Shown here: positions 10,574 to 34,771 of the stretch, piece by piece | Layout of the letters: the number at the start of each line of letters is the position of its first letter | Numbering within the stretch: position 1 is the stretch's first letter | Origin: an uncultured Methanobrevibacter sp. | GTDB taxonomy: Archaea > Methanobacteriota > Methanobacteria > Methanobacteriales > Methanobacteriaceae | NCBI GenBank assembly: GCA_902771225.1 | Contig: CACXWH010000014.1 | Coordinates: forward strand, 1 to 34,771 | Length of the DNA stretch: 34,771 nucleotides | Direction: 5' to 3' | Program-made: the position numbers and the translations under genes | The notes under the pieces: model-generated | Database searches by the model: none | What the model was told of the DNA's origin: nothing | The model's input: the letters and a program-made list of their open reading frames with translations, nothing else

Positions 10574-10615
10574 ACATTTAAAAAAATAAATAATGTTTAG
10601 ATTTGAAATCTAAAC
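10574..10615 (-). terminator. Hairpin plus T-run terminator of the adhesin gene
   Basis: GTTTAGATTT (10595-10604) and AAATCTAAAC (10606-10615) form a 10-bp stem around a single central base, overlapping the adhesin stop codon. On the minus strand a TTATTTTTT-type run follows. The near-zero loop means a real RNA hairpin would open the central pairs. Confidence 0.65.
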
Positions 10616-12988: not shown

Positions 12989-13107
12989 GATTTTCCCCCA
13001 AATAATCATTAAAATAAAACATGGTTAAAAGTTTATTGAACAGCATATAAAAATATGGTGATTTTAAGGACATGAAAAAACAAATAAATTAAATATGGAA
13101 TTTGATT

Positions 13108-14367: not shown

Positions 14368-14409
14368 TTTAAAGTATCCCCTTATTTTATTCATTTTTAA
14401 AGAAGTATG

Positions 14410-17438: not shown

Positions 17439-17450
17439 AAATAAAACACC

Positions 17451-18008
17451 TTAATATTTAATTTGTGATTGTGTAAGTGTTGGCCATTTTTCATCTTTTT
17501 CTGAGAAAATTAATTCATTAATACCCTCCATTGGCCAGTCAATTCCAATATCTGGATCATTCCAAATAATTCCACTTTCATCAGAACCATTATAAAAATC
17601 CGTACATTTATAGGCGAATTCTGCATAGTCAGATAACACTAAAAATCCGTGAGCAAAGCAAGGTGGAATAAACAACTGCTTTTTGTTTTCATCAGATAAA
17701 ATTGCACCGAACCATTCACCATAAGTAGGAGAATCACCTCTTAAATCAACCCCAACATCGAAAACCTCACCTTTTAAAACACGAACTAATTTACCTTGAG
17801 GCTGTGTTAACTGCAAATGAAGTCCCCTAAGAACTCCTTTTGATGAAGAAGATTGATTGTCCTGAACAAAAGTTAAATCATGGCCCGCTTCTTTAAAATC
17901 ATTTTCATTATAAGTTTCCATAAAATATCCTCGATTGTCATCGAAAACCACAGGCTCAACAATAAACATTCCTTCAATATCACATTCAATAAACTTAAAT
18001 TGAGCCAT
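17451..18008 (-). CDS. rmlC: dTDP-4-dehydrorhamnose 3,5-epimerase
   Basis: Epimerises dTDP-4-keto-6-deoxyglucose at C3 and C5 towards dTDP-rhamnose. The 185-residue cupin has the conserved GVLRGLHLQLTQPQGKLV (catalytic His region), the KGEVFDVGVDLR strand, and FIPPCFAHGFLVLSD. It starts at ATG 18008 with a strong ribosome site GGGGAGGATT; the rmlA stop codon is 2 bases upstream, so translation is coupled. Confidence 0.95.
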   Translation of the reverse strand: MAQFKFIECDIEGMFIVEPVVFDDNRGYFMETYNENDFKEAGHDLTFVQDNQSSSSKGVLRGLHLQLTQPQGKLVRVLKGEVFDVGVDLRGDSPTYGEWFGAILSDENKKQLFIPPCFAHGFLVLSDYAEFAYKCTDFYNGSDESGIIWNDPDIGIDWPMEGINELIFSEKDEKWPTLTQSQIKY

Positions 18009-18010
18009 TA

Positions 18011-18880
18011 TTAATCCTCCCCAACCAAATTAAATAAATATTGCCCATAATCTGTTTTTTTCAGCTCTTCAGCCGTTTCAAGTAATTGATCTTTTGTAAT
18101 GTAACCTTTAAGATATGCAATTTCTTCAAGACATGCAATGTATAAACTTTGTCTTTTTTGAACTGTTTCTATGAAATTAGCTGCTTCTAAAAGACCCGCA
18201 TGAGTACCAGTATCCAGCCATGCCATTCCACGACCCAACAATTCTACTTTTAACTTTCCTTCATTAAGAAATTCTTCATTTACAGACGTAATTTCAACTT
18301 CTCCTCTTTCAGAGGGCCTTACATTTTTAGCAATTTCAATTACACTATTATCATAGAAATATAACCCTGGAACAATATAATTAGACTTCGGATGTTCTGG
18401 TTTTTCTTCAACAGACAAAACATTCCAATCATCATCAAACTCAACAACACCAAAATCCTTAGGATTATTAGTATAATAACCAAAAATGACTGCCCCTTCT
18501 TCAAGATTAGTAGCACGTTCTAAAATCTCTGTAAATCTATGTCCATGGAAAATATTATCTCCTAAAATTAAAGCAACATTATCATCACCAATAAAGTCTT
18601 CACCAACAATAAAAGCTTCAGCAAGACCATTAGGATGCTCCTGAACAGCATACTCAAAACCAATACCCAAAGAAGATCCATCACCCAATAACTCTTTATA
18701 CATCGGCAAATCCCTAGGAGTAGAGATAATCAAAATTTCTTTTATGCCAGCGAGCATAAGAACTGAAATAGGATAATAAATCATAGGTTTGTCATATAAA
18801 GGCAATAACTGTTTAGAAACTGCTTTAGTAATAGGATACAAACGAGTCCCAGAGCCACCAGCAAGCACAATACCTTTCAT
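18011..18880 (-). CDS. rmlA: Glucose-1-phosphate thymidylyltransferase
   Basis: Joins glucose-1-phosphate and dTTP to dTDP-glucose, the first step of the dTDP-sugar route. The 289-residue protein has the nucleotidyltransferase signature [20 protein letters not shown], the [16 protein letters not shown] segment, LGDNIFHG (metal Asp), [10 protein letters not shown], and [14 protein letters not shown]. The length matches RmlA of the short type. ATG 18880 has ribosome site GGTGAT, and a TATA-like TATAATAAA (minus strand, about 18922-18930) lies 42-50 bases upstream. It leads the rmlACB operon. No rmlD (final reductase) is in the window, so the end product may be rhamnose, made with an rmlD elsewhere, or another 6-deoxysugar. 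Confidence 0.96.
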
Positions 18881-19314: not shown

Positions 19315-20292
19315 ATGAAAATTAATGTTGGTGTTATAGGGGCAGGAAGTCTTGGAACAGCAATTTCACAGCGTTTAAGTGAAAATTCAGAAAATGTCAT
19401 TCTTTTTGCAAGAAAAAAAGAAATATGTGATGATATTAATTATAATAATCTAAACTCTCAATATTTTCCAAATCAAAAATTAAATGAGAATATTAAGTCA
19501 ACAATTGATATTAATGATTTACAAAATTGTAAAATAATATTTTTAACAATACCTTCTTCTGCTTTTAGAGAAACTTTATCCAACTTAAAAAATATTATTG
19601 ATATTAATACAATATTAGTCACTACTGCTAAAGGTATTGAATATCCTTCCCTTAAAACTATGGGGGGTTTAATTAATGAATATTTTGATGAAAATTATGT
19701 GGTGATGTCTGGACCAAATTTTGCATCTGAAATAATGCTTAATCAACCAACGATCACCAATATTTCATCAAAAAATAAAGAAAACTCCAAATTAGTAAAA
19801 AATTTTTTATCCACTAAACAATTTAAAGTAAAAATCATAGACGATATTAAAGGCATAGAATTATGTGGTGTTTTAAAAAATATTAATGCAATTGCAAATG
19901 GTATTTGTGAAGGCATGAACATTAATGAAAACGCAAGATATAGCATTTTAACTTTAGGATTTAATGATACAATAAAAATAATAGAAAGTATTGGGGGTAA
20001 ATCGGAAACTGTACATGAATATTGTGGTTTTGGTGATTTAATGATGACCGCAACATCTAATGAAAGTAGAAATCATACATTAGGAATATTATATGGTCAA
20101 AAATTAATTATTGATGAAATAGCAAGTGGGATTGTTTTTGAAGGAAAAAATTCTATAAAAGCTATAAGGGACATTTGTGAAAAAAATAATGTTTCGAGTA
20201 ATATAGTTGATTTTGTTTATAATGTAATTATTGATAAAATGCCTCCAACAAGAGCATTTGACATTTTATGGAAATCTATTGAAAAAAAGTGA
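19315..20292 (+). CDS. gpsA: GpsA-like NAD(P)-dependent glycerol-3-phosphate dehydrogenase
   Basis: A 325-residue member of the GpsA family, which reduces dihydroxyacetone phosphate to sn-glycerol-3-phosphate. Motifs in order are the Rossmann loop VGVIGAGSLGTAISQRL, FLTIPSSAFRETL, TTAKGIE, VMSGPNFASEI, GVLKNINAIANGICEGM (catalytic Lys), and the substrate motif NESRNHTLG near the C-terminus. Archaeal lipids use sn-glycerol-1-phosphate made by an unrelated enzyme, so a GpsA here points to glycerol-3-phosphate for something else. It is followed at once by a nucleotidyltransferase gene whose ATG comes one base after its stop, and the same island holds a TagF-like glycerophosphotransferase. The strong ribosome site AAGGAGTG fixes the start. 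It could act on a related sugar-phosphate ketone instead. Confidence 0.88.
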   Translation: MKINVGVIGAGSLGTAISQRLSENSENVILFARKKEICDDINYNNLNSQYFPNQKLNENIKSTIDINDLQNCKIIFLTIPSSAFRETLSNLKNIIDINTILVTTAKGIEYPSLKTMGGLINEYFDENYVVMSGPNFASEIMLNQPTITNISSKNKENSKLVKNFLSTKQFKVKIIDDIKGIELCGVLKNINAIANGICEGMNINENARYSILTLGFNDTIKIIESIGGKSETVHEYCGFGDLMMTATSNESRNHTLGILYGQKLIIDEIASGIVFEGKNSIKAIRDICEKNNVSSNIVDFVYNVIIDKMPPTRAFDILWKSIEKK

Positions 20293-20293
20293 T

Positions 20294-21064
20294 ATGATGA
20301 TTAGTGTAATTTTAGCTGCAGGTATGGGAAAAAGATTAAGACCTCTTACAAATAATATCCCAAAACCTCTTTTAGAAATAAATAATGTAACATTGCTTGA
20401 AAGAATGATTAAAAATTGTATTGAAGTTAATATTTTTAAATTTATAATTGTCGTAGGATATAACAAAGACAAAGTAATTAATTTTGCTAAATATTTAGAA
20501 AAAAAATATAAAATTAATATTGAAATTATTGAAAATAAAAGATTTGATGTTACTAATACTTCAGTTTCCACATATTTAGCAAGCAAATATATTCAAAAAA
20601 ATGATTTGGATGATTTTTTATTAATTAATGGAGATAACGTCATTGATCCAAAAATAATTAATAAGATTGCTTCAAGAAAGAGTACAAGTATGATTATAGA
20701 CAATTTTAAAGATTTAAATGAAGAATCTTTTAAATTAATAATAACTCCTAAACATGTGAGTAAAGATAATTCAATTGTTTGTGGCATTATTGAAGAAATT
20801 GGTAAAGAAATTGATATCACAAGTTCTACTGGAGAATTTATAGGAGTTTCTAAAATATCAAAAGATGATATTGGACAATTTAATTATATTTTGGAGCAAT
20901 TAATTAATGAAGATGAACAAAATTATTATGATTTTGCTTTTAAAAAATTAAGTTCGATTTCAAATATTGATTTTGTCCTTACAAAAGGATTAAAATGGAC
21001 AGAAATTGATGATATGAATGATTGGCATCATGCCCAGTGTTTGATTCAAGAATTTGATAAATAA
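20294..21064 (+). CDS. LicC-like nucleotidyltransferase, candidate CTP:glycerol-phosphate cytidylyltransferase
   Basis: A 256-residue single-domain NTP-transferase. The N-terminal signature VILAAGMGKRLRPLTNNIPK with KPLLEI is intact; LLINGDNVID supplies the metal-binding Asp, and WTEIDDMNDWHHA near the C-terminus matches the W.EIDD..D...A ending of LicC-type phosphocholine cytidylyltransferases. I start at ATG 20294 (the adjacent ATG 20297 is possible) because an upstream extension would run back through gpsA. It begins one base after the gpsA stop, so the pair should be co-translated. The natural guess is that it activates the GpsA product as CDP-glycerol, replacing the unrelated TagD of bacteria. 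Choline or sugar phosphate are alternatives. Family firm, substrate inferred. Confidence 0.85.
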   Translation: MMISVILAAGMGKRLRPLTNNIPKPLLEINNVTLLERMIKNCIEVNIFKFIIVVGYNKDKVINFAKYLEKKYKINIEIIENKRFDVTNTSVSTYLASKYIQKNDLDDFLLINGDNVIDPKIINKIASRKSTSMIIDNFKDLNEESFKLIITPKHVSKDNSIVCGIIEEIGKEIDITSSTGEFIGVSKISKDDIGQFNYILEQLINEDEQNYYDFAFKKLSSISNIDFVLTKGLKWTEIDDMNDWHHAQCLIQEFDK

Positions 21065-21206
21065 TATAATGATAATGGTTATTTTGTTAATCTAACATAT
21101 AATAGTGAATAGTAAAATTTAAATTATATATTAATTTTATGAACTCCAAAGACTAGACAAATAGACATCATATTTAATATCATTTTCACCTATAGATTAT
21201 ATGGCA

Positions 21207-22352
21207 TTATATGTCAGTGTTGTTTCTTAGTTCATTAATCCAATCAGGAGTAAAATAATTTTCGATAAATCTTTCAATTCTTATTTCAATTATCATATCT
21301 GGATTAAACCAATCTATTAAATCCTTATTTAAACTCAAATGATCCCAATATAAGAACATTTCTCTAAAGTACAAACATAAAAAATGTTTTAATGGTGTGG
21401 TTGACGAATCTCTAAATATTAACGCCCTTTGATTGGAATAACTGTTTGGATTATAAATATATTCAGAAGCTCTATTTTTATTTTTAGAAAATCTTTCAGG
21501 AATATTTAAATATTGAATATCTATTGGTGTTGGAGCCATTATTTTATTAATTTTAATATTTTTCTTTTCTTTAAATGAATATGACCAATTTATATGAGAA
21601 AGTAAATCATGAGGTTCGGATTTTTCAGTAATATTGCATTCTTTTAAATATTTATTGTATTCAATTTGTGTGAAAGAAGGATCTATATAGTTTAAAATAT
21701 AATATGATAATCTTTTGGCACCTTCGATATTTTGATGTGTGTCTTTATCATAATAACACTTTTCATCCAATTTTTCAGAGAAATCAGGTATATTAATTAA
21801 ATCCAAATTACGTTTAAACGATTTGAATTTAAAGGGGATTAAATTTTTACATATAATGCTCTTATCCGGAACTATAAAATAATAATATTGTTTTCCAAAA
21901 TATTTTTTTTTAAAAACAAAATCCTGATTAAATACATCTTTATTGAATTGATTTTTATAATTTTCATCAAAATGTTGTTTAATTTCATTATTTGTATCAT
22001 TTATTAAAAAGTAAAAGTTTTTTCTTCCTCGAATGCAATGTTTTAGATTTAATTTGTCTAATTCACTAAATGTATACAATTTAGAGATACGACCTTCTTT
22101 TTTTCCATAAAGGATATAATGGCGTAATGGGTTCATACCATTTTTTTTGACATCAACATATTCTGTTAAATACCATTTTGTATCAAAATGAGGTGATGGA
22201 TTTAAATCTTGTGTAGCCCAATTTTCAAGATAGTATATAATAGGATCAATATCTTGAGAAATACCATATTTTTCACGAAACCAACCTTCATCGAATAAAT
22301 CAGAATTTTTAAGTAGATTATAATCAAATTTAGAATAGATATTATCACCACA
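21207..22352 (-). CDS. SGNH (AlgX/AlgJ-like) polysaccharide acyltransferase-type protein without a visible start codon
   Basis: The coding frame runs from 22352 (just after a TAA) to the stop at 21207, about 381 codons. The first ATG is only at 22136, yet residues before it are clearly coding and carry a repeat module (FDTKWYLTEYVDV...PLRHYILYGKKEGR) shared with other island proteins. The C-terminal domain has YYYFIVPDKS, CYYDKDTHQNIEGAKRLS and ALIFRDSSTTPLKHFL, then WFNPDMIIEIRIERFIE: the Asp-His and Ser motifs and the context seen in AlgX/AlgJ-type SGNH enzymes that O-acylate exopolysaccharides. There is no ATG, GTG or TTG between 22352 and 22136, so the gene is 5'-truncated, starts unusually, or initiates inside the module. 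No signal peptide is visible. Acylation of the local polymer is inferred. Confidence 0.6.
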   Translation of the reverse strand, partial: CGDNIYSKFDYNLLKNSDLFDEGWFREKYGISQDIDPIIYYLENWATQDLNPSPHFDTKWYLTEYVDVKKNGMNPLRHYILYGKKEGRISKLYTFSELDKLNLKHCIRGRKNFYFLINDTNNEIKQHFDENYKNQFNKDVFNQDFVFKKKYFGKQYYYFIVPDKSIICKNLIPFKFKSFKRNLDLINIPDFSEKLDEKCYYDKDTHQNIEGAKRLSYYILNYIDPSFTQIEYNKYLKECNITEKSEPHDLLSHINWSYSFKEKKNIKINKIMAPTPIDIQYLNIPERFSKNKNRASEYIYNPNSYSNQRALIFRDSSTTPLKHFLCLYFREMFLYWDHLSLNKDLIDWFNPDMIIEIRIERFIENYFTPDWINELRNNTDI

Positions 22353-22431
22353 TTATATAATTAAGTTAACATTATATTCTTTAGTACTACAATTATATGT
22401 TAGTTCAATTAACTTAGCAATCATTAGTTTA

Positions 22432-24072
22432 TTATGGAGCATCATTTTTTAAAAATTCAAGAAGTTCTTTTTTATTTTTTTTATTAATAGATTTATTGTT
22501 AAATTTACGGCCTTCATCAAATCCATTACACACATAATGTAATTCTGGTGAAAAATATTTGCAGAATTTACCCTTTGAAATATCAGGATATTTGTTAAGA
22601 TAATAATTAGAATCAAAATAATCAGAATCTTTAAAAGAATTATAAAGTCTGATATTTGTTTTAATTTCATTTGGTTTAGATTTAAATATAATATATACAT
22701 ATGATAAATAGTTAGAAAACTTTTTACTTGATTTAAATTTTTCATTATTTTTAATATCCGAATTCTCTCTTTTGTTTTGACTTTCAAAACTATCTTGCAT
22801 ATTATTATCTGTAGAATATTTGTTATCTAAACTTTTTGAATCCTTCAAATTGATATTATTTTGTTTTTCTTTTAATATTTTTAGTTGATTATTTGCATTA
22901 TTTAATTGATTTTGGGTGTTTTCTAATTTTTCTTTATTTTCTAAAAAAGTAGATTCTAAATTGATTAACCTATTATTAACTATTTCAATTTCATAATCTT
23001 TATCTTTAAGTTTTTTGTTTAAAAGATGCATCTCTTTTTCTTTAACCATGATTTTATCATCTTTTGATTTAGCTTCATAAGTTTTTGATTCTAATTTAGA
23101 TTCAATACTTTTGATTTGTGTTTCTTTGAGACTCATCTGACTTTCAACATTGTAAATTTGAGAATCTTTATATTTCATTTCATCATTTTTAATTTTCAAC
23201 TGATTTTCATAATTAGTGAGTTCACTATCTTTCTTTTTTATTTCAGATTTAAATTCATCAACCATCCCTAAATCGTCTTTAAGTAGGTTCATTTCACTAA
23301 CATACCTTAAAAGAAAACTATTTTCAATAAATTTATCAGACAAATCACTTGGAGTATAATCTGATTCTGTTGATTCGCCGAGAATACTTTCAATTTTAAT
23401 GTTTGTATCATGAGAAGGTTCATAAATAAGTGTAATTCCTTCTAAGGGATTAATTTCTAAAACTTTTAATGATAAATTTTCCTTTAAAAAATCTTCAATA
23501 GCTGTTAAGACCCCATTTTTTGGAGTATCTTGATGAATTGCATGGCAAAAACCATCTTTAATCATTGTTTGTTTGGTTTCATCCCCATCTTTATAAATAA
23601 CCGGTAAATCATTACAACATTCATTTTTGTATTCCTTTGGGATTTTATTTGGATTAATATATGAATCCCTACGTTTATGAGGATATTTATTATTACAAAC
23701 AAAAACAAGTGGGAAATTTGGATTGTTCTTTTTAATTAAATTAAGTTCATTATAAACAGTATACCAATTCGGGTCATCATTTATAAATATTGCATCAAAA
23801 GGTTCGAGATTTGGTAAAATATTTAAAGTATCATCATTAAAATGTTTAATATTTCCGTCTAAATAATTTTCATCTAAATCATCAATTCCACTAATTAAAT
23901 TCCGAATATTAATTTTAGAATCTATGGAATATAATGAATAATGATTATTAATACAATATGAAATTATTTCATTCATTAAAAGTTCATTTGATAACCCAAT
24001 TACCAATACCTTTTTTACCTCAAACCTACTTAAAAAAGTAGGAATTATACATAACTCAAAAAAATTAAACAT
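22432..24072 (-). CDS. Methyltransferase-like / coiled-coil / repeat-module protein
   Basis: A 546-residue three-part protein. Residues about 18-215 resemble a class I methyltransferase of the kind found in wall-glycan clusters: VLVIGLSNEL and LYSIDS, then FDAIFINDD, KRRDSYINPNKIPKEYKN and CHAIHQDTPKNGVLTAIEDF. The last matches the HA.HEGGP.NGVLTA.EDF motif of that group. The glycine loop for SAM is reduced to GLSNEL, so catalysis is uncertain. Residues about 255-420 are a long highly charged coiled coil. Residues about 475-525 carry the HY..G..EGR module (YLNKYPDI, LHYVCNGFDEGRKF). ATG 24072 follows AAGGGAT. It lies upstream of the SGNH gene, same strand, 79 bases away. Probable role: a modifying or scaffold component of a glycan assembly. 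Confidence 0.75.
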   Translation of the reverse strand: MFNFFELCIIPTFLSRFEVKKVLVIGLSNELLMNEIISYCINNHYSLYSIDSKINIRNLISGIDDLDENYLDGNIKHFNDDTLNILPNLEPFDAIFINDDPNWYTVYNELNLIKKNNPNFPLVFVCNNKYPHKRRDSYINPNKIPKEYKNECCNDLPVIYKDGDETKQTMIKDGFCHAIHQDTPKNGVLTAIEDFLKENLSLKVLEINPLEGITLIYEPSHDTNIKIESILGESTESDYTPSDLSDKFIENSFLLRYVSEMNLLKDDLGMVDEFKSEIKKKDSELTNYENQLKIKNDEMKYKDSQIYNVESQMSLKETQIKSIESKLESKTYEAKSKDDKIMVKEKEMHLLNKKLKDKDYEIEIVNNRLINLESTFLENKEKLENTQNQLNNANNQLKILKEKQNNINLKDSKSLDNKYSTDNNMQDSFESQNKRENSDIKNNEKFKSSKKFSNYLSYVYIIFKSKPNEIKTNIRLYNSFKDSDYFDSNYYLNKYPDISKGKFCKYFSPELHYVCNGFDEGRKFNNKSINKKNKKELLEFLKNDAP

Positions 24073-24220
24073 AAAATCCCTTTACTATATTTTAAAATGT
24101 TAATATTATATTATTTATGGGCATTATAATATATAATACTTTTACTAATATAAATTCTTTGAGCTAATTTAATAAATGGGACTCTCAAATTGTTAAGTTG
24201 TGATTTATTCATTTAATCAA

Positions 24221-24289
24221 TCATTTCTGCACATTAATATGTCTTCTATCCTCATTATCCCATAAACTCTTTTTCCCAAGTTTAAGAGA
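24221..24289 (-). pseudogene. Scrap of a coiled-coil GT2 C-terminus
   Basis: A minus-strand open stretch reads SLKLGKKSLWDNEDRRH before a TGA at 24221-24223. It resembles the very end of the neighbouring glycosyltransferase (AEKLGYEKALWDY) and its paralogue (NHKYPLWDF). It lies about 180 bases beyond the stop of the 24472-26472 gene, as expected from a tandem duplication whose other copy has been lost. The remainder of the 24073-24471 gap is AT-rich with no gene. Confidence 0.35.
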
Positions 24290-24471
24290 TTATTACTATT
24301 GAAAATTATTTTAATTTATTATTTATTGATTTTAATTTATTCCCATAACCATTTTAAAGAATTTTAAGTGATAATATAGATTGATAACTACTCATAAAAT
24401 TCAATTAAATAAAAACAATAGAATTCTTAGAATATTACTATAAATTATTTGATGTCAAAAAAAATAATTAA

Positions 24472-26472
24472 TTAATAATCCCATAACGCTTTCTCATATC
24501 CTAATTTTTCTGCTAATTCAGGTTCCCATTGATTTTTTTTAAACATATACTCATAGACACCTCTTTCTGTTTCTCTCAATTTTTTTGTTGCTGCTTGGTG
24601 TTTATGATAAACAAATGCTCCCGGAGCCTGGTAAATTTTTAATTTTAAAATATGTCTTACAAAATCTGAAAAAATCCTATCTGACCGATAATGTCTACCT
24701 AATTCTGAATCCAAACCTAAAGTCTTTTTATAAACATCACGTTTAATATATGTGCAGAAAAATGGGGCGAAATTCAATTCTAATAATTCCCCATCATGAA
24801 ATACTGGTACATTAATAATATTATGATGTGCTCTTGAAGGAGTAGTATCACATACAAAATCAATATTTGCATATGGTACATGTGCAAGCATAGTTTTATT
24901 TCCTGCGGATAACATTTCATGAGGTACAACAATACCACAATCAGGAATAGAATAAGCACAATGTTGCATATGACATAAGGCACTTTTGGTTAATATCGCA
25001 TCATTGTTTAAAAGTAATATGTCTGAATTATAATCAGATAATGTTATTCCTTGTTCAACTGCAAAAGTAAATCCATAATTAATATTATTTGAAATTAGAT
25101 GTATTGTGCCCTCTGAACTTAAATCAAATAAAAATTTTTTAACATCCTCACTAGAATTATTGTCAACAATTATTATATCAACCATGTCTCCAAATCCAAA
25201 TGATAAAATTGAATTTATACAATTTTTGAGTTCATTTAATGATTCATAATTAGGTATAATGATGCTCACTTTTTTATTAAGCGAATCCATATGATTACAT
25301 TTTATTTTATTCCTTTCCCTAACATTTTTTACTAAATCATAATTGTTAGACCTGTTAGTGAGCCTATCATTAGAATCATGTTCATAATACTTTGAAAGTA
25401 AAACTGGAACCGAGTATAATTTAAAATTATTACTAATTTTTAATATAAAATCCCAATCAGCCATCTTCATCAATTCATTATCAAAACTAATATTAATTTT
25501 TTTTAATATACTTGATTTATGGCAAAAAGAATTTAAATCTATATAATTATGATTGTGTAATAATGATTTATTATATGAACCAAAACGTACTGCATGAGAT
25601 TTTGAACCAAAATTTTTGTATAGTAACTGGCCAGAATACAATGCATCAGCATCAGGTAATTTAATAAATGCACCAACCATTGTTTCAATAAATTTTGAAT
25701 CCCATTCATTATCGGAATCCAAATACATTATAATTTCCCCATTAACTTTTGTTAAAGCATAATTACGTGCAAAAGAACAACCTTTATTTTTATCATTTGA
25801 AAATATACGTATTCTATCATCATCAAAAGAATTTAATATACTTACTGTATTATCAGTGCACCCATCATTTATAATTATTAATTCAAAATTAGAATATGAT
25901 TGATTTAAAATTGAGTTGATAGCATTTTGGATAAAATTTTCTTGATTGTAAGTTGGCATGATTATAGAGACTAATGGGTTATAGGTGGTATTTGATAAAA
26001 TTTTTCTTAAATATTTACCAATATGATCCATAAATGCGAAAATCCTTTTATCTTCATTTGAAAAAGGTGATTTTATAATCGGCGAGGTATAAGAATTAGC
26101 TAAAAACTCTTGAAAATTAATAAATTCTTTCATTTTGGTTAATCTTTTATTTTGATTTTTTAAAGAAACATTACTCTTTTTCAATTTTTTATTTTTTCTC
26201 TTCAAAGAAGATATTTCCTTTTTTAAAGACGAATTTTCTTTATTTAAAGATGAATTTTCTTTATTTAAAGATGAATTTGCATTATTTAAACTTAAAACTT
26301 CCATATTTAATTTTTCATTAACTTCTTTCAGATTTATTAAATTATTCCTCAAAATTTTAGATTTATCAATTAAACATTTATTTTTTATATTTAAACTCAT
26401 AACATTTTCTTTTAAATATCCATATTGTTTTGATTGATCTTTTTTAGTTTCTTTACGTTCATTAATCTTCAA
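24472..26472 (-). CDS. Coiled-coil double-domain family 2 glycosyltransferase
   Basis: A 666-residue protein. Residues about 25-115 are a coiled coil with heptad repeats (SSLNKEN twice). About 117-160 is a linker, FQEFLANSYTSP...PFSNEDKRIFAFMD, shared with the 27328 gene. The first GT2 domain (about 163-380) has SIIMPTYNQENF, INDGCTDNT and the metal-binding MYLDSDNEWD. The second (about 402-640) has SIIIPNYESLNEL, IIVDNNSSED and LLLNNDAIL. Both active sites look complete, so it may add two sugars in turn. The C-terminus is LGYEKALWDY. The start is a TTG at 26472 behind AGGGTTG; the first ATG (26400) would remove 24 residues. There is no signal peptide or membrane segment, hence a cytoplasmic or membrane-peripheral enzyme. 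Likely role: building an envelope glycan. Confidence 0.87.
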   Translation of the reverse strand: MKINERKETKKDQSKQYGYLKENVMSLNIKNKCLIDKSKILRNNLINLKEVNEKLNMEVLSLNNANSSLNKENSSLNKENSSLKKEISSLKRKNKKLKKSNVSLKNQNKRLTKMKEFINFQEFLANSYTSPIIKSPFSNEDKRIFAFMDHIGKYLRKILSNTTYNPLVSIIMPTYNQENFIQNAINSILNQSYSNFELIIINDGCTDNTVSILNSFDDDRIRIFSNDKNKGCSFARNYALTKVNGEIIMYLDSDNEWDSKFIETMVGAFIKLPDADALYSGQLLYKNFGSKSHAVRFGSYNKSLLHNHNYIDLNSFCHKSSILKKINISFDNELMKMADWDFILKISNNFKLYSVPVLLSKYYEHDSNDRLTNRSNNYDLVKNVRERNKIKCNHMDSLNKKVSIIIPNYESLNELKNCINSILSFGFGDMVDIIIVDNNSSEDVKKFLFDLSSEGTIHLISNNINYGFTFAVEQGITLSDYNSDILLLNNDAILTKSALCHMQHCAYSIPDCGIVVPHEMLSAGNKTMLAHVPYANIDFVCDTTPSRAHHNIINVPVFHDGELLELNFAPFFCTYIKRDVYKKTLGLDSELGRHYRSDRIFSDFVRHILKLKIYQAPGAFVYHKHQAATKKLRETERGVYEYMFKKNQWEPELAEKLGYEKALWDY
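26231..26272. repeat. Tandem 21-bp repeat encoding a coiled-coil heptad
   Basis: Two identical 21-bp units lie at 26231-26251 and 26252-26272, flanked by diverged copies at about 26210-26230 and 26273-26293. On the coding strand each unit specifies seven residues (SSLNKEN register), exactly one coiled-coil heptad. Gain or loss of a unit keeps the frame and lengthens or shortens the coil by one heptad. Confidence 0.8.
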
Positions 26473-26740
26473 AATAACAACCCTATAATTAACTTTTAAA
26501 AATTGATATAAATTTTAGAAATTTTCATCATCACATTATTTTAAATATTTTAATATTATATTATATCTCTTTAAATATAAAACTTTTATTAAGTGAAACA
26601 ATATACTTAAAATTGTTAGAACATGAAAAATAAAAAAAATCGTACAAATTTTTGAAAGAATTATCGTTGAACTAATTAAATATATATTTATGTATTGCCA
26701 AATATTATATTAATTATATTTAAATGAATAGGTAATTAAA

Positions 26741-27274
26741 ATGTCTAATGGGAATTATAGTAAAGATTCATTATTAAATGAAAAAAAAATAAAAGATATT
26801 TTAGAAGATTTACAAGATTACATTAATCAAACCAAAAATAATAATCAAATGTTGAATTTAATTAATGAGCATTTTGAATCAAATAAAACTATCAAAAATG
26901 AAAATTTTAACATCACTGAATTCACACAAATAATTGATGAAAAAAATCAGGAAATTATCTATCTATCTGAAAAAATCAAAACATTAACAGAATACATATC
27001 AAAAAATGATACGCCATTTAAAATATTTAAAAATGAGATATCAACTAATGAAAAAACAATCCACAATCTAAAAAGTGAAATTACTGGATTAAATGAAATT
27101 TTATCACGCAAACAAAAACAAATTGAATTTTTAAATAGGGAAAATAATATTCTTAAATCTAATTTTGAGCTCAATATGGATAATATTAAATCTTTAAGAA
27201 AAGAAATTGAAATTTTAAAATCTATTATTGATGAAAAAAACCGAATAATTAAGTCCTTGGAAAATAAAAATTAA
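26741..27274 (+). CDS. Coiled-coil protein upstream of a GT2 gene
   Basis: A 177-residue soluble, highly charged protein without signal peptide or membrane segment. From about residue 60 it is almost entirely heptad-like (IIDEKNQEIIYLSEKIKTL, then LKSEITGLNEILSRKQKQIE and SLRKEIEILKSIIDEKNRII). It is not an enzyme. ATG 26741 follows AGGTAA, and TATA-like stretches lie at 26678-26725 in a divergent 268-base gap shared with the opposing 26472 gene. It is 53 bases ahead of the glycosyltransferase at 27328, whose own coil is very short. It may therefore be that enzyme's separately encoded coiled-coil partner, the equivalent of the N-terminal coil fused in the 24472-26472 protein. It could be an unrelated scaffold. 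Confidence 0.75.
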   Translation: MSNGNYSKDSLLNEKKIKDILEDLQDYINQTKNNNQMLNLINEHFESNKTIKNENFNITEFTQIIDEKNQEIIYLSEKIKTLTEYISKNDTPFKIFKNEISTNEKTIHNLKSEITGLNEILSRKQKQIEFLNRENNILKSNFELNMDNIKSLRKEIEILKSIIDEKNRIIKSLENKN

Positions 27275-27327
27275 GATAATTAATTTAGATTTATATAACA
27301 TAACACAAAATTTAGGTTGGTTTTAAT

Positions 27328-29067
27328 TTGAATAATAAAAATTTGTCTAATGAAATTGCTTCTTTAAAAAATAAGATTAAGAGATTAAATAAAGAAAATA
27401 AATCCCTTAAGAATAATTTTTTTAATTTTCAAGAATTTCTTACTAAATCATATATTTCTCCAAGATTCAATGCACCGTTTTCAAATGAAGAAAAACAGGC
27501 TTTTGTATTTATGGATTATTTAAGCGAATATTTAAGGAACATTCCATTAAATAACGATTATCATCCACTAGTATCTGTTATAATGCCCACATTTAATAGA
27601 AGAACCTCCATAGAATACGCATTAACTTCTGTTCTAACTCAAACATATGATAATTTTGAACTTTTAATTATTGATGATGGCAGTACAGATGGTACAGTTG
27701 AATTTTTAAATACAATCCCTGATGAAAGACTTAAAATATTAAGTCATGGTGAAAATAAAGGATGTTCCTTTTCTAGAAATTATGGTCTAAAAAATGCGAA
27801 AGGAGATATTATAATGTATTTAGATTCCGATAACACTTGGGATCCAAGATATATTGAAGCTATGGTTGGTGCATTTTTTGAATTGCCTGATGCAGATGCA
27901 TTGTATTGTGGACAATATTTAATTAGAAATTTTAGTTCAGAACATCCCTTTGGGGTTCGTTTTTGTTCATTTAATAAGCTTTTATTACATAACCATAATT
28001 TCATTGACTTAAATTGTTTTTGCCATAAGAAGGAAATTATAAATGATATTGGGGCATTCGATGAAACCTTGTGGCGATTAGTTGATTGGGATTTAATTTT
28101 AAGGATAAGTAATACTTTAAAAATATATTCAGTCCCAGTTTTACTTTCTAATTATTATGTACATAAATTTGAAAACAGAATTTCAAATATGGAATTTGAT
28201 TATGAAGCTGCATGTGAAATACTTTTAAATAGAAATAAGATACCTCATAAAGAATATAATCCTCTTGATAAAAAAGTTAGCATTATATTACCCAATCATG
28301 GATCATTAAATGAACTTAAAACATGCTTAAATTCAGTATTTTCTTGTAATCTTGGAGACATGGCCGATGTCATTGTTATTGATATTAATTCTAACACAGA
28401 AGTTGTAGAATATCTTTTAAATCTGGAATTGGAAGGAAAAATTAAATTGATACTTAATTGTCTTAATCATGGTTTGGATTATACAATTAAAAAGGGTATT
28501 ATCAAATCTGATTCAAACTCAGATTTATTATTTATAAATACTGGAACTACTTTAATAAAGGGAGCTATCGAACATATGCAAAAGTCTGCTTATGACCTTC
28601 CAGATTGTGGTTTAGTTGTACCACATATGATGACAACGAATGAACAAGATGTGCATGATTTCCAAATTCCGTATGCTCATCCAGAATTGGAGTCCGATTC
28701 AATACCTTCATTAAATCATAATAATGTAAAAAATTTACCGATATTCCATGACGGAGGCACATTAGAATTAAATTTCGCACCATTATTTGGAACATACATT
28801 AAAAGAGAAATTTATAATAAGATAATAAGTTTGAATCCTAATTTAAATATACATAAATTCTTCGATTATACATTTTCTGATATTATCAACTATATGTTGA
28901 ATTTAAAAATTTATCAAATCCCTGATGCTTATATTTATCAAAAATATGTTGATATGAGTATGTTTGAAGTAAGTGAAAAAGAATTGAATTATATTTATAA
29001 TAATGATGAATTAAAAAACAATCCTACTCAAAAGTTAAATCATAAATATCCCCTATGGGATTTTTAA
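27328..29067 (+). CDS. Double-domain family 2 glycosyltransferase with degenerate second domain
   Basis: A 579-residue paralogue of the 24472-26472 protein. It has a short coil (about 5-30), the shared linker FQEFLTKSYISP...PFSNEEKQAFVFMD, a complete first GT2 domain (SVIMPTFNRR, IDDGSTDGT, MYLDSDNTWD), a second GT2-like domain and the ending KYPLWDF. In the second domain the motif corresponding to LLLNNDA in the paralogue reads LLFINTGT, and the VDNNS equivalent reads IDINS, so the usual metal-binding acids are lost and this half is probably inactive or purely binding. The start is TTG 27328, behind AGGTTGG with a 7-base gap, much like the TTG start and leader of the paralogue. It is convergent with the 29108 gene. 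Acceptor and donor sugars are unknown. Confidence 0.87.
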   Translation: MNNKNLSNEIASLKNKIKRLNKENKSLKNNFFNFQEFLTKSYISPRFNAPFSNEEKQAFVFMDYLSEYLRNIPLNNDYHPLVSVIMPTFNRRTSIEYALTSVLTQTYDNFELLIIDDGSTDGTVEFLNTIPDERLKILSHGENKGCSFSRNYGLKNAKGDIIMYLDSDNTWDPRYIEAMVGAFFELPDADALYCGQYLIRNFSSEHPFGVRFCSFNKLLLHNHNFIDLNCFCHKKEIINDIGAFDETLWRLVDWDLILRISNTLKIYSVPVLLSNYYVHKFENRISNMEFDYEAACEILLNRNKIPHKEYNPLDKKVSIILPNHGSLNELKTCLNSVFSCNLGDMADVIVIDINSNTEVVEYLLNLELEGKIKLILNCLNHGLDYTIKKGIIKSDSNSDLLFINTGTTLIKGAIEHMQKSAYDLPDCGLVVPHMMTTNEQDVHDFQIPYAHPELESDSIPSLNHNNVKNLPIFHDGGTLELNFAPLFGTYIKREIYNKIISLNPNLNIHKFFDYTFSDIINYMLNLKIYQIPDAYIYQKYVDMSMFEVSEKELNYIYNNDELKNNPTQKLNHKYPLWDF

Positions 29068-29107
29068 TGGAATAATAATAAATTATTTAATCATTTATGT
29101 ATAATAA

Positions 29108-30985
29108 TTAAAATGATTTTAATCTAACATCATTATTTTCGCTAATATAAATTTTTACTTTCATATTATCAATTGTAAACAATTTTTCATTGAAATTTAT
29201 TAAATGGTCTTTTCTAAATCTAACATTTTTCTTTATTTTACCGTCATTATTAAAAATTGTTAGAAAAAGAGAATATGAGGACCTTTGATCCAAGAAAAAT
29301 TCCCACTCCAATTCAAAAGCTGTTTTTTCCTCATTTTGAGTTAAATATATTAATTCCTCTGTTGAATCCTTACGTATCAACATTTTAAAATTCTTTTTAA
29401 TAGTATCTTTATTTTTTATTAAAATTTTTAGTTTATCATCATCAAAATCGATTTCAAAGTCCTTTTCTAAATTTTGAGTAATTAAAGAAAGTTGTCCAAT
29501 TGAATTAATAACTGGTATATTATTATCCACTTTACAAATTATTTCTTTAATTGAAGTTTCATTAAGATGTATTTTATTAAACTTCTCATTTTTATAATTA
29601 GCTTTTAAAAAGATTGTATACATTTCAAAGCTAGATAAATCCGATGATAAAATTTCAAGAGTATATTTTATATTTCCATTTTCTTCAATCTTATTAAAAT
29701 CAAATGTTTTCACATTATCTTCTAAAATATCATTAAAACTAGTAACACCACTTAAAACAAGTTGTAATTTTTCAATTGATAAATATTTTGGAATGGTCAC
29801 ATCTGAAAATATAATTTTATCTGAAGTAAAATTTAATTTACCAACATTTACAAATTGTTCCATTAAATATTTAACTTTAAATAATTTATCAGGGACAGGC
29901 ACATCAGGATTTCTAAATAATGGTAATTTCCAATAACTATTATTATTTTCATCACATATTTCCCTTTGATTCTTTAAACTTAACCTCAGCAATTCTTTAA
30001 GTTCATTTCTATAATTATTAATAATTAAATAAGCATAAATATTATCTATCAAATTCAAATCATTTTCATAAATATTTTCAAATTTACTTTCCTGGTCTTT
30101 TAATAAAATTCTCACTCTATTAAACAGGATATCTTCAAATTCCGCACTATTTAAAACTCCCTTTATAGGTACTAAAATTCTTCTTAGCAAAATTTTAAAA
30201 TAAACATCACAAGAATCAATAAAATAATCTAAATCCAAATCATAAGAATCTAATCTATTAATATAATTATCAGTATTTGCCCTGCTCGTACTCAAAGAGC
30301 TTTTAATTTGTCTCCACAAATAAACACAATCGGGAATGATTGCTATTTTATTAGCATATGTATAAGCCATATGCGAAAAGTACCTATCAGCATAAATCAT
30401 TCCTATCGGTAATTTTATATCATTTTTTATTAATAAATCTTTTCTAATTATCTTATTCCAATAAAAAGCATCCTCAAATATTTCTGGAAAATTATTTATG
30501 TCCGTTATAACCTGTTCTTTTCTCCAAACATAATTTTCACGAAAATCAAATTCGATTTGCGAATTTCCCACTATAAAATTAGCTTTTCCGATACAAATAT
30601 CTGCATCTTCCAGTTTAGCTTTTTTGTATAACTTTTCATAAGCATAATTAGGTATAATATCATCATTATCCACTAAAATAATATATTCACCATTAGCTAA
30701 ACTTATTCCTAGATTTGCACTAGTTGCTAATCCTTCATTTACTTTTTTATCAATTACACGAATATTATCATATTTTTCTTCAAATCGTTTGCAAACACTT
30801 AAACTATTATCTGTACTGGCATCGTTTATTAATAATATTTCTAAATTATCTAACGTTTGATTAACTAAAGAATATAAACACTTTTCTAAATATGATCCAC
30901 CATTATAAACTAAAACAATCGCAGTTAATCCATATGTTTTATTATCATTATCCATATTTGAATAAATAACATTGAAATTATTCAT
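29108..30985 (-). CDS. Family 2 glycosyltransferase with C-terminal accessory domain
   Basis: A 625-residue protein. Residues about 15-240 form a GT2 domain with TAIVLVYNGGSYLEKCL, LLINDASTDNS, IILVDNDDIIPNYA (metal motif near residue 103) and GKANFIVG. The region to about 370 is helical, and the last 250 residues are beta-rich and not recognised, a layout also seen in teichoic-acid-decorating glycosyltransferases such as TarS/TarM-type GT2 enzymes. ATG 30985 has a strong GGGGGAG site and follows the TagF-like gene by 2 bases, so the two are a coupled operon. A plausible role is to glycosylate or prime the glycerol-phosphate polymer made by its partner. The C-terminal part and the acceptor are unknown. 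Confidence 0.85.
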   Translation of the reverse strand: MNNFNVIYSNMDNDNKTYGLTAIVLVYNGGSYLEKCLYSLVNQTLDNLEILLINDASTDNSLSVCKRFEEKYDNIRVIDKKVNEGLATSANLGISLANGEYIILVDNDDIIPNYAYEKLYKKAKLEDADICIGKANFIVGNSQIEFDFRENYVWRKEQVITDINNFPEIFEDAFYWNKIIRKDLLIKNDIKLPIGMIYADRYFSHMAYTYANKIAIIPDCVYLWRQIKSSLSTSRANTDNYINRLDSYDLDLDYFIDSCDVYFKILLRRILVPIKGVLNSAEFEDILFNRVRILLKDQESKFENIYENDLNLIDNIYAYLIINNYRNELKELLRLSLKNQREICDENNNSYWKLPLFRNPDVPVPDKLFKVKYLMEQFVNVGKLNFTSDKIIFSDVTIPKYLSIEKLQLVLSGVTSFNDILEDNVKTFDFNKIEENGNIKYTLEILSSDLSSFEMYTIFLKANYKNEKFNKIHLNETSIKEIICKVDNNIPVINSIGQLSLITQNLEKDFEIDFDDDKLKILIKNKDTIKKNFKMLIRKDSTEELIYLTQNEEKTAFELEWEFFLDQRSSYSLFLTIFNNDGKIKKNVRFRKDHLINFNEKLFTIDNMKVKIYISENNDVRLKSF

Positions 30986-30987
30986 GA

Positions 30988-33582
30988 TTATTCTCCCCCA
31001 AAAATAATGTTAATAACTTCTTCTGAAGCATTTCCATGACCTAATCCACAGAATTTTTTATAAAATTTATTATATTGATTAGCATATTCTTTTTCTACAT
31101 CAGTTATATTTCTTATACATCTAATTAATTCATCTTCATTATATATTTCAGGACCGGGCAAACTCTCTTTAACTTCAGAATATAAACCCCTTAAAGAGGA
31201 ATATTTTTCAATATCCGGCACATAAAACAATATTGGCTTTTTAGAATGTGCAAAATCAAAAAATACTGATGAATAATCGGTTATTAAAATATCGGAAATT
31301 AAATATAAATCTGCGATATCATCATAATTAGATAAATCCATTATCACATTTTTCACTTTTTCTGATAAATCTAATTGTCTTAAAATTGAATAATGTAATC
31401 TTATTATAATTATATAATCATTACCCAAATTTTCGCAGATTTTTTCTAAATCCAAAACATGAGAATATTTTTTACGGTCGTGTTCATCAACTTCATAATC
31501 CCTAAAAGTAGGACAATATAAAATAATTTTTTTATTAGAATCAATATGTAATTTATCTTTAATTTCTTGTTCTTTAATAGATGTATCTTCATAAAAAATG
31601 TCATTAGCAGGATATCCTTTATTAATAATTGGACCATCATATTCAAATGACCGTTTAAAAATATCTTTTGCATAATCACTTGGAGACAATAAATAATTCC
31701 AAGTACCAACTTCTCTACTAATACTTCCTTTAGTGACATTTTTATCAGTCGAATTGATATCAGTACCCATACGTTTATAAGGAGTTCCATGAGTAGTGTG
31801 TATATGAATTACATTTTCATTTGGTTTCAATATAGGGAAACTAATATTGGTTATCCAATAACTTGAAGCACGCAACATGTCAAAATAATGCTCTGATCTT
31901 CTTTTGATAACAACTGGATTTCCAGGTATTTTTAATTTTTCTTTATTATATGCCCAAACAAAGTCATATTTTTCATCCAATCCTAACTCTAGCATTTTTT
32001 CATAAATATATTTTGGTTGTCCTGAATAGAATCTTGCCATGAAACTTTCAAAGAAAACAGTTTTTTTAACATATTTTTTAAGATTATTTTTTAATTTATT
32101 TATTTTATCCCCTTTTAAAATACGAGTTCCTAAGACATTATCCGAAATGTTTTTTAGTCGAATAGCAACTTTAAAATTTTTAATTAAATCAGTGGCCCGA
32201 TATTTAAAATTAATTTTTGAACTAAATTTAACTATGTCATCATATTTTTCAAAATTACAGATTAATGATTTTTTATCAACATCGTTTTGATTTAGAAACA
32301 TTATAAACTCAACGGTTTCAAAATTCAAGTTTTTCAATAATTCAATTTTGCCATTCACTATTAAATTTTCATTTTTATTAATAACATCGATGTCTCTGAC
32401 TATAAAATTAGCTTTTTGATGTTTGAATGCAACATAATGGTCTGCAGTTTCATATGGGTCAAAGATTATACTATTTTCTTTATCAATTAATATTTTATTA
32501 TTATTTTGGGCATTGAAGTTAATTCTAAATAAAAAATCTGTATCGAATGTACTTAATTGAACATAAGAATCATAAATTCCAGATGTGCCAAATTTCATCA
32601 AGTCATTTCCATTTAATTCAACTTCATTATTTTTTATTTCTTTTAAAATTCTCTTCCCGGAATTTCTATGCTTTATCATTAAACTAGTTTTATAAAAAAT
32701 TTCTAATAAATCACCCTGTTGAAAATTAGAAATCTTATTTTTTTGTCTGAATAGTAATTTATTATTTTTTTCAATAAGATCAAAAGAAAAATTATTATTG
32801 TATTCTTTATCAAAAAATTCATTGATATCTTTAATAATTGTGTTATTTATTTCCCATAAAATTAATCTAGATAAAGCGGGGTGTTTAAAAATACCATCAT
32901 CAGGATAATAATTATTAAATTTGAAAAGATAATTTAAAATAATATAATAAATAAATGGATTAATATCATATTTTTCAATTTCGGGATATAACTTTAAAAA
33001 ATTATTTAATTTAAATTCATGAAAAGGATTACACTTTTCATAAATTCCCAGTGTTAAATAGTGCTTTATTGAATCAAAAGTATCTGTATTTAGTTTATAT
33101 TTTAACATATAATTTTCTTCATTGAACAAAAATGATTCTTTAATAAATTCATATTGTTCATCCAATGTTTTTGGGATAGTTAAAATATTCCCATTTAAAC
33201 CTTTTAAATTTTTATTAATATCATAATCATTTGAGATTATTAAATCATATTTCATAATCAAGTTTTCTTGAATTTCTAAATCATGAGTATTATTAGGAGC
33301 ATAAATAATTTTTGTGCCATTAATACTTGAATATTCAAAAAGTAATTTAATATTTTTTAAATCTAAACTACAATTTATAAATAAAACATCGAAAATTACT
33401 TCTGATTTGATTAAATCTTCAACCATTAATTCATCGAGATTATAATAAATAAATCTATCATCGATTAAATTACAATAAAATAAGAGTTCATAAGGTGTAT
33501 CATTTGCAAATAAACCTATCTTTACATTATTGTTATAATTATTATTTATTTCAGATATTTTAGTTATATCCTTAATTTTCAA
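30988..33582 (-). CDS. CDP-glycerol glycerophosphotransferase-like (TagB/TagF) enzyme
   Basis: An 864-residue protein. The C-terminal half (about 520-855) is a glycerophosphotransferase domain of the TagB/TagF family, which adds glycerol- or ribitol-phosphate from a CDP donor. Motifs are YWITNISFPI, HTTHGTPYKRMG (catalytic His near 597), ILYCPTFRD, IIIRLHY, and ILITDYSSVFFDFAHSKKPI (near 769). The N-terminal half includes a partial HY..G module (YMLKYKLNTD, IKHYLTLGIYEKCNPFHEF) near 155-200 and a beta-rich spacer. The start is TTG 33582 with a strong GGAGGT site 6 bases away; a TATA-like TATAAATATAT (33621-33632) precedes it. It is first in an operon with a GT2 gene. With the GpsA and LicC-like genes in the same island it suggests a teichoic-acid-like polymer. 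Confidence 0.9.
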   Translation of the reverse strand: MKIKDITKISEINNNYNNNVKIGLFANDTPYELLFYCNLIDDRFIYYNLDELMVEDLIKSEVIFDVLFINCSLDLKNIKLLFEYSSINGTKIIYAPNNTHDLEIQENLIMKYDLIISNDYDINKNLKGLNGNILTIPKTLDEQYEFIKESFLFNEENYMLKYKLNTDTFDSIKHYLTLGIYEKCNPFHEFKLNNFLKLYPEIEKYDINPFIYYIILNYLFKFNNYYPDDGIFKHPALSRLILWEINNTIIKDINEFFDKEYNNNFSFDLIEKNNKLLFRQKNKISNFQQGDLLEIFYKTSLMIKHRNSGKRILKEIKNNEVELNGNDLMKFGTSGIYDSYVQLSTFDTDFLFRINFNAQNNNKILIDKENSIIFDPYETADHYVAFKHQKANFIVRDIDVINKNENLIVNGKIELLKNLNFETVEFIMFLNQNDVDKKSLICNFEKYDDIVKFSSKINFKYRATDLIKNFKVAIRLKNISDNVLGTRILKGDKINKLKNNLKKYVKKTVFFESFMARFYSGQPKYIYEKMLELGLDEKYDFVWAYNKEKLKIPGNPVVIKRRSEHYFDMLRASSYWITNISFPILKPNENVIHIHTTHGTPYKRMGTDINSTDKNVTKGSISREVGTWNYLLSPSDYAKDIFKRSFEYDGPIINKGYPANDIFYEDTSIKEQEIKDKLHIDSNKKIILYCPTFRDYEVDEHDRKKYSHVLDLEKICENLGNDYIIIIRLHYSILRQLDLSEKVKNVIMDLSNYDDIADLYLISDILITDYSSVFFDFAHSKKPILFYVPDIEKYSSLRGLYSEVKESLPGPEIYNEDELIRCIRNITDVEKEYANQYNKFYKKFCGLGHGNASEEVINIIFGGE

Positions 33583-34254: not shown

Positions 34255-34771
34255 ATGACCAAAAAAAGCAAAAACTTTGATAATGTAACTGAAGAAATTG
34301 AAAACTTTCCTAAGGATTTAAATTTTGAAAAAAATACTAAAAATCAAGATTTTGATATTGATAATAAATTAAATATATATGATAACCAAATTAATTATTT
34401 AAATCAAGAAATTATTGATTTTAAAGAAATTATAAGTAAAACAAAAGAATATTTATTATTAGAACTTGAATCTAACTTAGATAAACATAAACAAATTCAA
34501 CTTAAAAATGAAAATAAATACGAAGAATTAATTATTCTTCTAAAAAATGACAACAATGATAAATTTTCTTCACTAAATGAAGAAATTGGTAAACTTAAAC
34601 AAATCATTATTGGAAAAAATGAATTAATAGAAATATTAAAAAACGAAAAAAATGAATCATATGATGAGATTAGTTTATTAAATGAAAAAATAAATACTAT
34701 TATTAAATCAAAGGATGCTGAAATTAATAAACTTAATGAAGAAAAAAATATTGAAATAAATAATTTATCAA
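34255..34771 (+). CDS. Coiled-coil protein, C-terminus beyond window
   Basis: Open from ATG 34255 (MTKKSKNFDN) to the window end, at least 172 residues. It is highly charged and rich in Asn, Lys, Glu, Ile and Leu, with long heptad-like stretches such as NQINYLNQEIIDFKEIISK and LNEEIGKLKQIIIGKNELIE. No signal peptide or membrane helix is present. In composition and style it matches the 26741 protein and the coil of the 24472-26472 glycosyltransferase. It may be another free coil or the N-terminus of a further coiled-coil glycosyltransferase; the window ends before this can be decided. Confidence 0.75.
   Translation, partial: MTKKSKNFDNVTEEIENFPKDLNFEKNTKNQDFDIDNKLNIYDNQINYLNQEIIDFKEIISKTKEYLLLELESNLDKHKQIQLKNENKYEELIILLKNDNNDKFSSLNEEIGKLKQIIIGKNELIEILKNEKNESYDEISLLNEKINTIIKSKDAEINKLNEEKNIEINNLS

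Follow-up and report, generated by a model that had tools for sequence, protein, structure and literature searches.

The window analysed here, a whole 34,771-nucleotide stretch, is contig C14 of the genome of an uncultured Methanobrevibacter sp. (G000; 2.36 Mb, 99.88% complete). It carries genes for a GpsA-type glycerol-3-phosphate dehydrogenase, an adjacent LicC/PntC-type nucleotidyltransferase (NT), and a TagF-type transferase of family PF04464 paired with a GT2 glycosyltransferase. We consider it likely, with a probability of about 0.7, that these genes belong to a module that makes CDP-glycerol and consumes it in building a cell-surface glycan, by way of an uncharacterised cytidylyltransferase that is not of the TagD type. 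GpsA of the window's clade (clade A), NT and the TagF-type PF04464 protein occurred together in 43 of 138 genomes of the host's family, spread over nine genera, and the three families were also found side by side in a second archaeal lineage, the Methanoculleus group. A chain from dihydroxyacetone phosphate (DHAP) through sn-glycerol-3-phosphate (G3P) and CDP-glycerol to surface glycerol phosphate best accounts for the joint occurrence of the three families in both lineages.

The gpsA gene encodes a full-length protein of 325 amino acids (aa) in which both Pfam domains were present (PF01210, 3.8e-38; PF07479, 1e-37). The protein scored over the curated cut-off of NCBIfam model NF000942 (E 3.2e-80), and the solved GpsA structure 3k96 matched residues 4-318 with an E-value of 3.9e-48. 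As evident from the alignment of 80 archaeal copies, the lysines and the SRN motif for which we tested were conserved: K106, K188, D241 and S251-R252-N253, which we take to be catalytic, were at least 97% identical. A single gpsA copy was found in the host genome. Archaeal lipids are built on sn-glycerol-1-phosphate, the opposite enantiomer to the GpsA product, and an earlier, sequence-only reading of this DNA had argued that this product needs a sink outside the lipids. In line with that argument, the PlsY model, which matches 8 of 14 controls, gave no match in the host genome, and supply of G3P to bacterial-type lipids was set aside on this basis, with PlsB, PlsC and PlsX not searched. One Fe-ADH_2 protein in the host genome would fit EgsA, although the family is not specific.

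The NT gene begins one base after the gpsA stop codon on the same (plus) strand, at an ATG (position 20294) within the listed open reading frame (ORF) 20231-21064. Its product matched the Pfam NTP_transferase family (1.4e-16), and LicC (1jyk) was the best solved sequence relative (2.3e-12), which bears out the LicC-like gene that had been placed beside gpsA from motifs. A profile (A1) built from 20 NT sequences matched LicC 1jyk over residues 4-115 (E 1.2e-18) and PntC 6pd1 over residues 4-249, nearly the entire domain (E 1.7e-15). The CTP users LicC, PntC and IPCT were among the nearest characterised sequence relatives, and NT likely uses CTP by its kinship to LicC and PntC. An AF2 model of NT (pLDDT 94.4) revealed PntC 6pd2 as the top fold match, with a Z-score of 29.0 and an rmsd of 2.2 over 236 aligned residues, and LicC 1jyl scored 25.9. 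The TagD-type GCT model TIGR01518 was absent among the best 25 NCBIfam models listed for NT. In a quick, unrooted tree in which some bacterial branches were very long, and for which 52 of 69 rows were used and about half of the Methanobrevibacter NTs were omitted, the archaeal NTs formed one group apart from 23 bacterial NTs (SH-aLRT 99). A W-T/S-E-I-D motif near the end was retained in 42 of 43 complete NT ORFs.

The TagF-type protein has 864 aa and matched PF04464 (Glyphos_transf) over residues 504-861 with an E-value of 4.7e-100 and 335.5 bits against a gathering score of 22.1. Staphylococcus epidermidis TagF (3l7i) matched it at E 1e-71, and the two histidines that are changed in the TagF variants 3l7j and 3l7m are histidines in the window protein, where they lie in HGTP and RLHYS as compared with HGTP and RMHYL in the wild type. 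The best NCBIfam model was TarF (1.1e-80), compared with 7.1e-26 for TarL. By these matches the protein belongs to the TagF/TarF family, within which its sequence does not distinguish a primase, a single-unit transferase and a polymerase. Because only two bases separate the TagF-type gene from the GT2 gene, it was reasonable to describe the two as operonic, as had been done from the sequence.

We searched the 138 genomes for PF07479, which was found in 57 genomes at 74 places, and retrieved the surroundings of the 73 places outside the window. Neighbour labels are BLASTP matches to seeds and not curated annotation; two loci of G047 (L100 and L101), apparently a single stretch in duplicate, were both counted, and of gpsA in L109 no more than a 73-aa end is present. 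A cytidylyltransferase-family gene lay within three genes of gpsA for 71 of the 74 copies, and the three others had no downstream ORF before the contig end. The partners were of three kinds, namely NT (42), a TarI/IspD-like gene (20) and a TagD-like GCT fusion (9). The 53 clade A copies were 56-100% identical to the window GpsA; NT stood within three downstream genes in 42 of them (directly adjoining in 39), the partner was a TagD-like GCT joined to a Gfo/Idh-type domain in 8, and the 3 without a partner were all at contig ends. The 21 copies of clade B (L089-L108 and L076), 45-51% identical to the window GpsA, had TarI/IspD-like partners in 20 cases (one upstream) and a GCT fusion on the opposite strand in one; G042 had the clade B type only. 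LicD-like genes were present near most clade B copies, as checked with Pfam for L095. Among the 44 NT genes of the gpsA-anchored loci and the window, 22 had a PF04464-like gene immediately downstream on the same strand, and 11 had two such genes in a row after NT. Fusions of TagD-like cytidylyltransferase and Gfo/Idh-type oxidoreductase (L039:4922-6226, L044:6718-8022 and others) were also seen to adjoin gpsA, aminotransferase and LicD genes.

When named genomes were searched with NT, 79 loci were obtained. Within three genes of the NT in 46 archaeal loci we found GpsA in 36, PF04464 in 32 and both in 25. The ten loci without a nearby GpsA comprised three with NT near a contig end (L115, L122 and L130), six LicD-bearing islands (L133-L137 and L143; that of L133 was seen in its counterpart L049) and L147. 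In the Methanoculleus group (L150-L157), PF04464, NT and GpsA lay on one strand in all eight loci, with PF04464 directly beside NT in seven; the families were Pfam-confirmed for L151 only. The module copy was the sole GpsA match in seven of these eight genomes, and the eighth had two matches, both at contig ends. These arrangements bear on the possibility that GpsA is catabolic or redox-balancing and stands beside NT incidentally. GpsA is sporadic in archaea, and the available excerpts of two papers treat archaeal GpsA with membrane lipids and give it no surface role (PMC5059525, PMC6431249). However, the near-constant cytidylyltransferase-family partner of one kind or another, together with a sole Methanoculleus-group GpsA that sits beside PF04464 and NT, makes an incidental position highly improbable.

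Another explanation is that NT acts on a different substrate, for instance a phosphonate or phosphocholine, and that its pairing with GpsA reflects only a shared surface-glycan island. PntC at the top of the fold list, with LicC near, would agree with this, as would the neighbours of bacterial relatives. In particular, an aminotransferase-like gene was present within three genes of NT in 18 of the 32 non-archaeal loci within L158-L191, and L162 revealed Aminotran_5 and two CDP-alcohol phosphatidyltransferases by Pfam, as expected of phosphonolipid-type loci; such neighbours suit CTP-using enzymes with another acceptor. The archaeal NTs, however, form their separate group with GpsA and PF04464 as usual neighbours, and an aminotransferase-like label was found within three genes in only one of the 46 archaeal loci (L143), where not all unlabelled genes were identified. 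The near one-to-one phyletic match of NT and GpsA, described below, is also hard to explain without a shared substrate, and we judge activation of another compound to be quite unlikely. The bacterial NT relatives of Shewanella and other Proteobacteria (L158-L187) are possible phosphonolipid loci in their own right.

Over the 138 genomes, clade A GpsA and NT were both present in 48, each was alone in one, and neither was found in 88. NT-positive here means strong matches plus G004, in which the gene is cut by the contig end, and leaves out the weak partial matches in G045, G048 and G123 and a 66-residue contig-end fragment in G074 that could be a genuine NT. PF04464 in any form is widespread, being present in 119 genomes, of which 62 had no GpsA. 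Its stronger subtype, taken at E<=1e-100, a limit set after the list had been inspected and with presence and E-values copied by hand, followed clade A GpsA closely (both 43, GpsA only 6, PF04464 only 3, neither 86). The same counts were 20/4/2/41 within genus g1 alone and 8/0/0/44 outside g1 and g9. Thus 43 of the 46 genomes with this subtype also had clade A GpsA and NT, so that the co-occurrence expected by the sequence-only reading was observed; Fisher p-values of these tables ignore relatedness. The weaker PF04464 types probably use another donor in the genomes that lack GpsA. One copy of a weaker type is the 361-aa protein in the host genome (G000:C24:36583-37611, L110), which lies in a Bac_transf/GT cluster and has counterparts of similar size in many genomes of the genus.

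A number of observations weigh against the proposed module. In the window itself the TagF-GT2 pair is some 8-10 kb away from gpsA-NT and on the opposite strand, which corrects the picture of one island drawn from the sequence; all three families adjoin one another in relatives, but not in the window. Several sugar nucleotidyltransferases scored between PntC and LicC or just below in the fold comparison, with UDP-glucose pyrophosphorylases reaching Z 26.6; since these scores are nearly equal, the acceptor of NT is not readable from structure, and we rejected a substrate deduced from fold. Moreover, NT was over no NCBIfam cut-off among the best 25 models listed, and the TagF-type protein fell below the TarF cut-off (271.6 against 550). 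The clade B partner in L095 was named D-ribitol-5-phosphate cytidylyltransferase by NCBIfam (274.1 bits against 166), so the different kinds of partner may act on different substrates and pairing alone is no proof of glycerol. In five genomes (G017, G018, G023, G028 and G029) the TagD-like fusion adjoins gpsA, and NT lies 7-10 kb off on the same contig; as NT stands there beside PF04464, the idea that the fusion substitutes for NT is weakened. The phyletic pattern also has exceptions: G001 has NT and PF04464 without GpsA, G033 has GpsA and a TagD-like fusion without NT, TagF-type PF04464 occurs in G054, G068 and G035 with neither clade A GpsA nor NT, and six clade A genomes lack PF04464 at E<=1e-100. 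Finally, in the genome taken to be that of Methanobrevibacter ruminantium M1 (G019) the NT frame is shifted near its 3' end (L196:6181-6897), with the W-T/S-E-I-D motif in another frame. Either the sequence contains an error or the gene has been lost, and the link to wall chemistry is weaker for it. This shift and the naming of the clade B partner as a ribitol enzyme slightly reduce our confidence.

The host genome provided further points on the same side. A TarI-like gene on contig C10 scored 373.5 bits with NF001183 (cut-off 166) and matched solved TarI 4jis at 1.5e-93, and the TarJ-like gene that follows it matched the ribulose-5-phosphate reductase 6xh9 at 4e-114. This pair (L192:8982-10704; G000:C10, 16981-18703) lies near an ArgJ-family gene, and TarJ was present only in L192 among the loci examined. 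The two genes probably encode a CDP-ribitol pathway in an archaeon, with CDP-ribitol as a probable second donor, which could serve some of the five PF04464 transferases matched in the host genome. To this extent the pathway inferred by the sequence-only reading, which gains from the genomic linkage and the co-occurrence, is qualified. It might then be argued that the TagF-type protein uses CDP-ribitol from this other contig and that GpsA-NT serves a different pathway, as the five paralogues and the many GpsA-less genomes with PF04464 would allow. On the other side, it is the strong PF04464 subtype that tracks clade A GpsA and NT, a PF04464-like gene often adjoins NT, and TarF scored far over TarL; both donor uses can also coexist among the five paralogues. 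We regard this reading as unlikely.

Other sources, sinks and routes were sought in the host genome as well. No TagD-type GCT (TIGR01518) was found over the cut-off, and the only match was a protein of 155 aa (8.6e-8), which we take to be FAD-synthetase-like. TagD was set aside as the source of CDP-glycerol on this finding. The 155-aa protein was kept as a weak alternative because Aquifex AQ185, of the FAD synthetase family, is Gro3P-specific according to the accessible part of PMC8262930, and a cytidylyltransferase of this kind could supply other CDP-alcohols or the same one, a further point on the opposing side. LicD, the model of which matches 2 of 14 controls, gave no match in the host genome and was set aside as a sink there, and the LytR-CpsA-Psr ligase family (PF03816; 7 of 14 controls) gave none in that genome either. 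On contig C5 (L111:2881-11846), an ABC-2 permease and an ATPase are followed by two large GT2/PF04464 proteins, and the permease and ATPase offer a possible export route.

It is also conceivable that the CDP-glycerol produced goes into single glycerol-phosphate groups that decorate a polysaccharide or glycoprotein, rather than into a teichoic-acid-like polymer, a variant that is compatible with the proposed module. PF04464 spans primases, single-unit transferases and polymerases, TarF ranked first among the NCBIfam models, and the module is present in the Methanoculleus group, which is not known to have pseudomurein walls. Two PF04464-like genes in a row after NT, as polymer systems may have, argue instead for a polymer, and so does M. 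ruminantium, although its NT frame is shifted. According to an excerpt of PMC2812497, which cites Kandler and Konig 1978, M. ruminantium walls contain phosphate at levels of teichoic-acid-bearing bacteria. We give decorations a sizeable chance, somewhat short of even.

Teichoic-acid-like genes in Methanobrevibacter are already in print. Homologues in the M. ruminantium genome were proposed in 2010 (PMC2812497, in the same excerpt), and one such transferase was up-regulated under lauric acid, as stated in the accessible text of PMC5816558. In M. ruminantium M1 we found GpsA, a 363-aa gene on the other strand, NT and PF04464 in this order in one stretch. We found no account of the GpsA-NT module, or of a link between archaeal GpsA and CDP-glycerol, in the open-licence literature searched.

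Among known systems, the module shares with the bacterial wall teichoic acid pathway (GpsA, TagD and TagB/TagF) the GpsA family, the predicted CTP activation of G3P and a PF04464 protein with the two TagF histidines, whereas the cytidylyltransferase here is of the LicC/PntC type and not TagD, no LytR-CpsA-Psr match was found in the host genome, and the wall is archaeal. NT has the fold and sequence family of LicC, a CTP:phosphocholine cytidylyltransferase, and PntC, a phosphonoalkylate cytidylyltransferase, but its partners are GpsA and PF04464 rather than choline or phosphonate genes, and its predicted acceptor is G3P. The TagF-like capsule polymerase Cps3D of the Gram-negative Actinobacillus pleuropneumoniae (8qoy) matched the window protein at 2.2e-31. 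The available portion of PMC8262930 describes such polymerases as using CDP-glycerol and a sugar nucleotide, and, in contrast to the module, their CDP-glycerol is supplied by the GCTs Cps3B and Cps7B, which belong to the cytidylyltransferase family. The TarI-TarJ CDP-ribitol pathway likewise pairs a reductase with a cytidylyltransferase, and TarI-like genes pair with clade B GpsA in relatives, whereas NT is the usual partner of clade A GpsA, with CDP-glycerol as the predicted product.

On this basis we propose the following pathway. GpsA, by its family, would reduce DHAP to G3P. NT would then move CMP from CTP onto G3P to give CDP-glycerol, a step that is performed in bacteria by the unrelated TagD/GCT. 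Finally, the TagF/TarF-type protein would transfer the glycerol phosphate of CDP-glycerol onto a glycan that the GT2 enzymes assemble, with sugars possibly drawn from the nearby Rml and UDP-sugar dehydrogenase genes. The product may be a polymer of glycerol phosphate or of glycosyl-glycerol phosphate, or else a set of single decorations, presumably at the cell surface. This would give the scattered methanogen GpsA, an odd item in lipid-divide work, a concrete and testable role, and would explain why a "bacterial" glycerol enzyme is kept by some archaea whose membrane lipids do not use its product. We lean modestly towards the broader view that methanogen GpsA genes are surface-polymer genes, whose presence is uninformative on mixed or ancestral membrane lipids. 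The proposal could also bear on the teichoic-acid-like phosphate of M. ruminantium walls, with the same reservation about its NT, and it predicts a new class of CDP-glycerol enzyme and, on methanogens of the gut and rumen, a surface structure to which hosts and phages would be exposed.

Table 1. Features of the window in the proposed module and its surroundings, with the evidence for each.
Feature	Position	Strand	Evidence
gpsA, predicted NAD(P)H-dependent sn-glycerol-3-phosphate dehydrogenase (DHAP reductase), clade A	19315-20292	+	Pfam, NCBIfam, solved GpsA match
NT, LicC/PntC-type nucleotidyltransferase; predicted CTP:glycerol-3-phosphate cytidylyltransferase	20294-21064	+	Pfam, profile, AF2 fold
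TagF/TarF-type protein; predicted CDP-glycerol:glycerophosphotransferase domain (residues ~504-861) after an N-terminal region of ~490 aa	30988-33582	-	Pfam, NCBIfam, 3l7i match
GT2 glycosyltransferase, 2 bases downstream of the TagF gene	29108-30985	-	GT2 Pfam E 8.4e-31
Coiled-coil-like and GT2 protein, same island	27328-29067	+	Pfam; coiled coil judged by eye
Coiled-coil-like and GT2 protein with two GT2 stretches, same type as the preceding	24472-26472	-	Pfam; coiled coil judged by eye
RmlA-type NTP transferase, RmlC-type epimerase and RmlB-type dehydratase; dTDP-sugar genes beside gpsA	16431-18880	-	Pfam families; gene names inferred
Two UDP-glucose/GDP-mannose dehydrogenase family genes, nucleotide-sugar supply	13144-15714	-	Pfam

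The island is AT-rich: its GC content is 23.1%, while the left-hand part of the window has 31.9%. An adhesin-like protein with the bacterial Ig-like domains Big_3_5 and Big_1 is encoded near the sugar genes (10610-13009, minus strand). Between NT and the first coiled-coil-GT2 gene lie two minus-strand ORFs, 21207-22352 and 22432-24072, for which a Pfam search gave no match. The frame of the 309-aa ORF of this pair stays open 5' of its ATG, in a stretch without a start codon, and this upstream extension resembles, by eye, the repeat-like sequence that ends the adjacent ORF; the two are perhaps a single gene now split in two. Additionally, coiled-coil-like proteins are encoded at 26741-27274 and 34255-34770, and together with the two coiled-coil-GT2 proteins of Table 1 they appear by eye to be duplicates.

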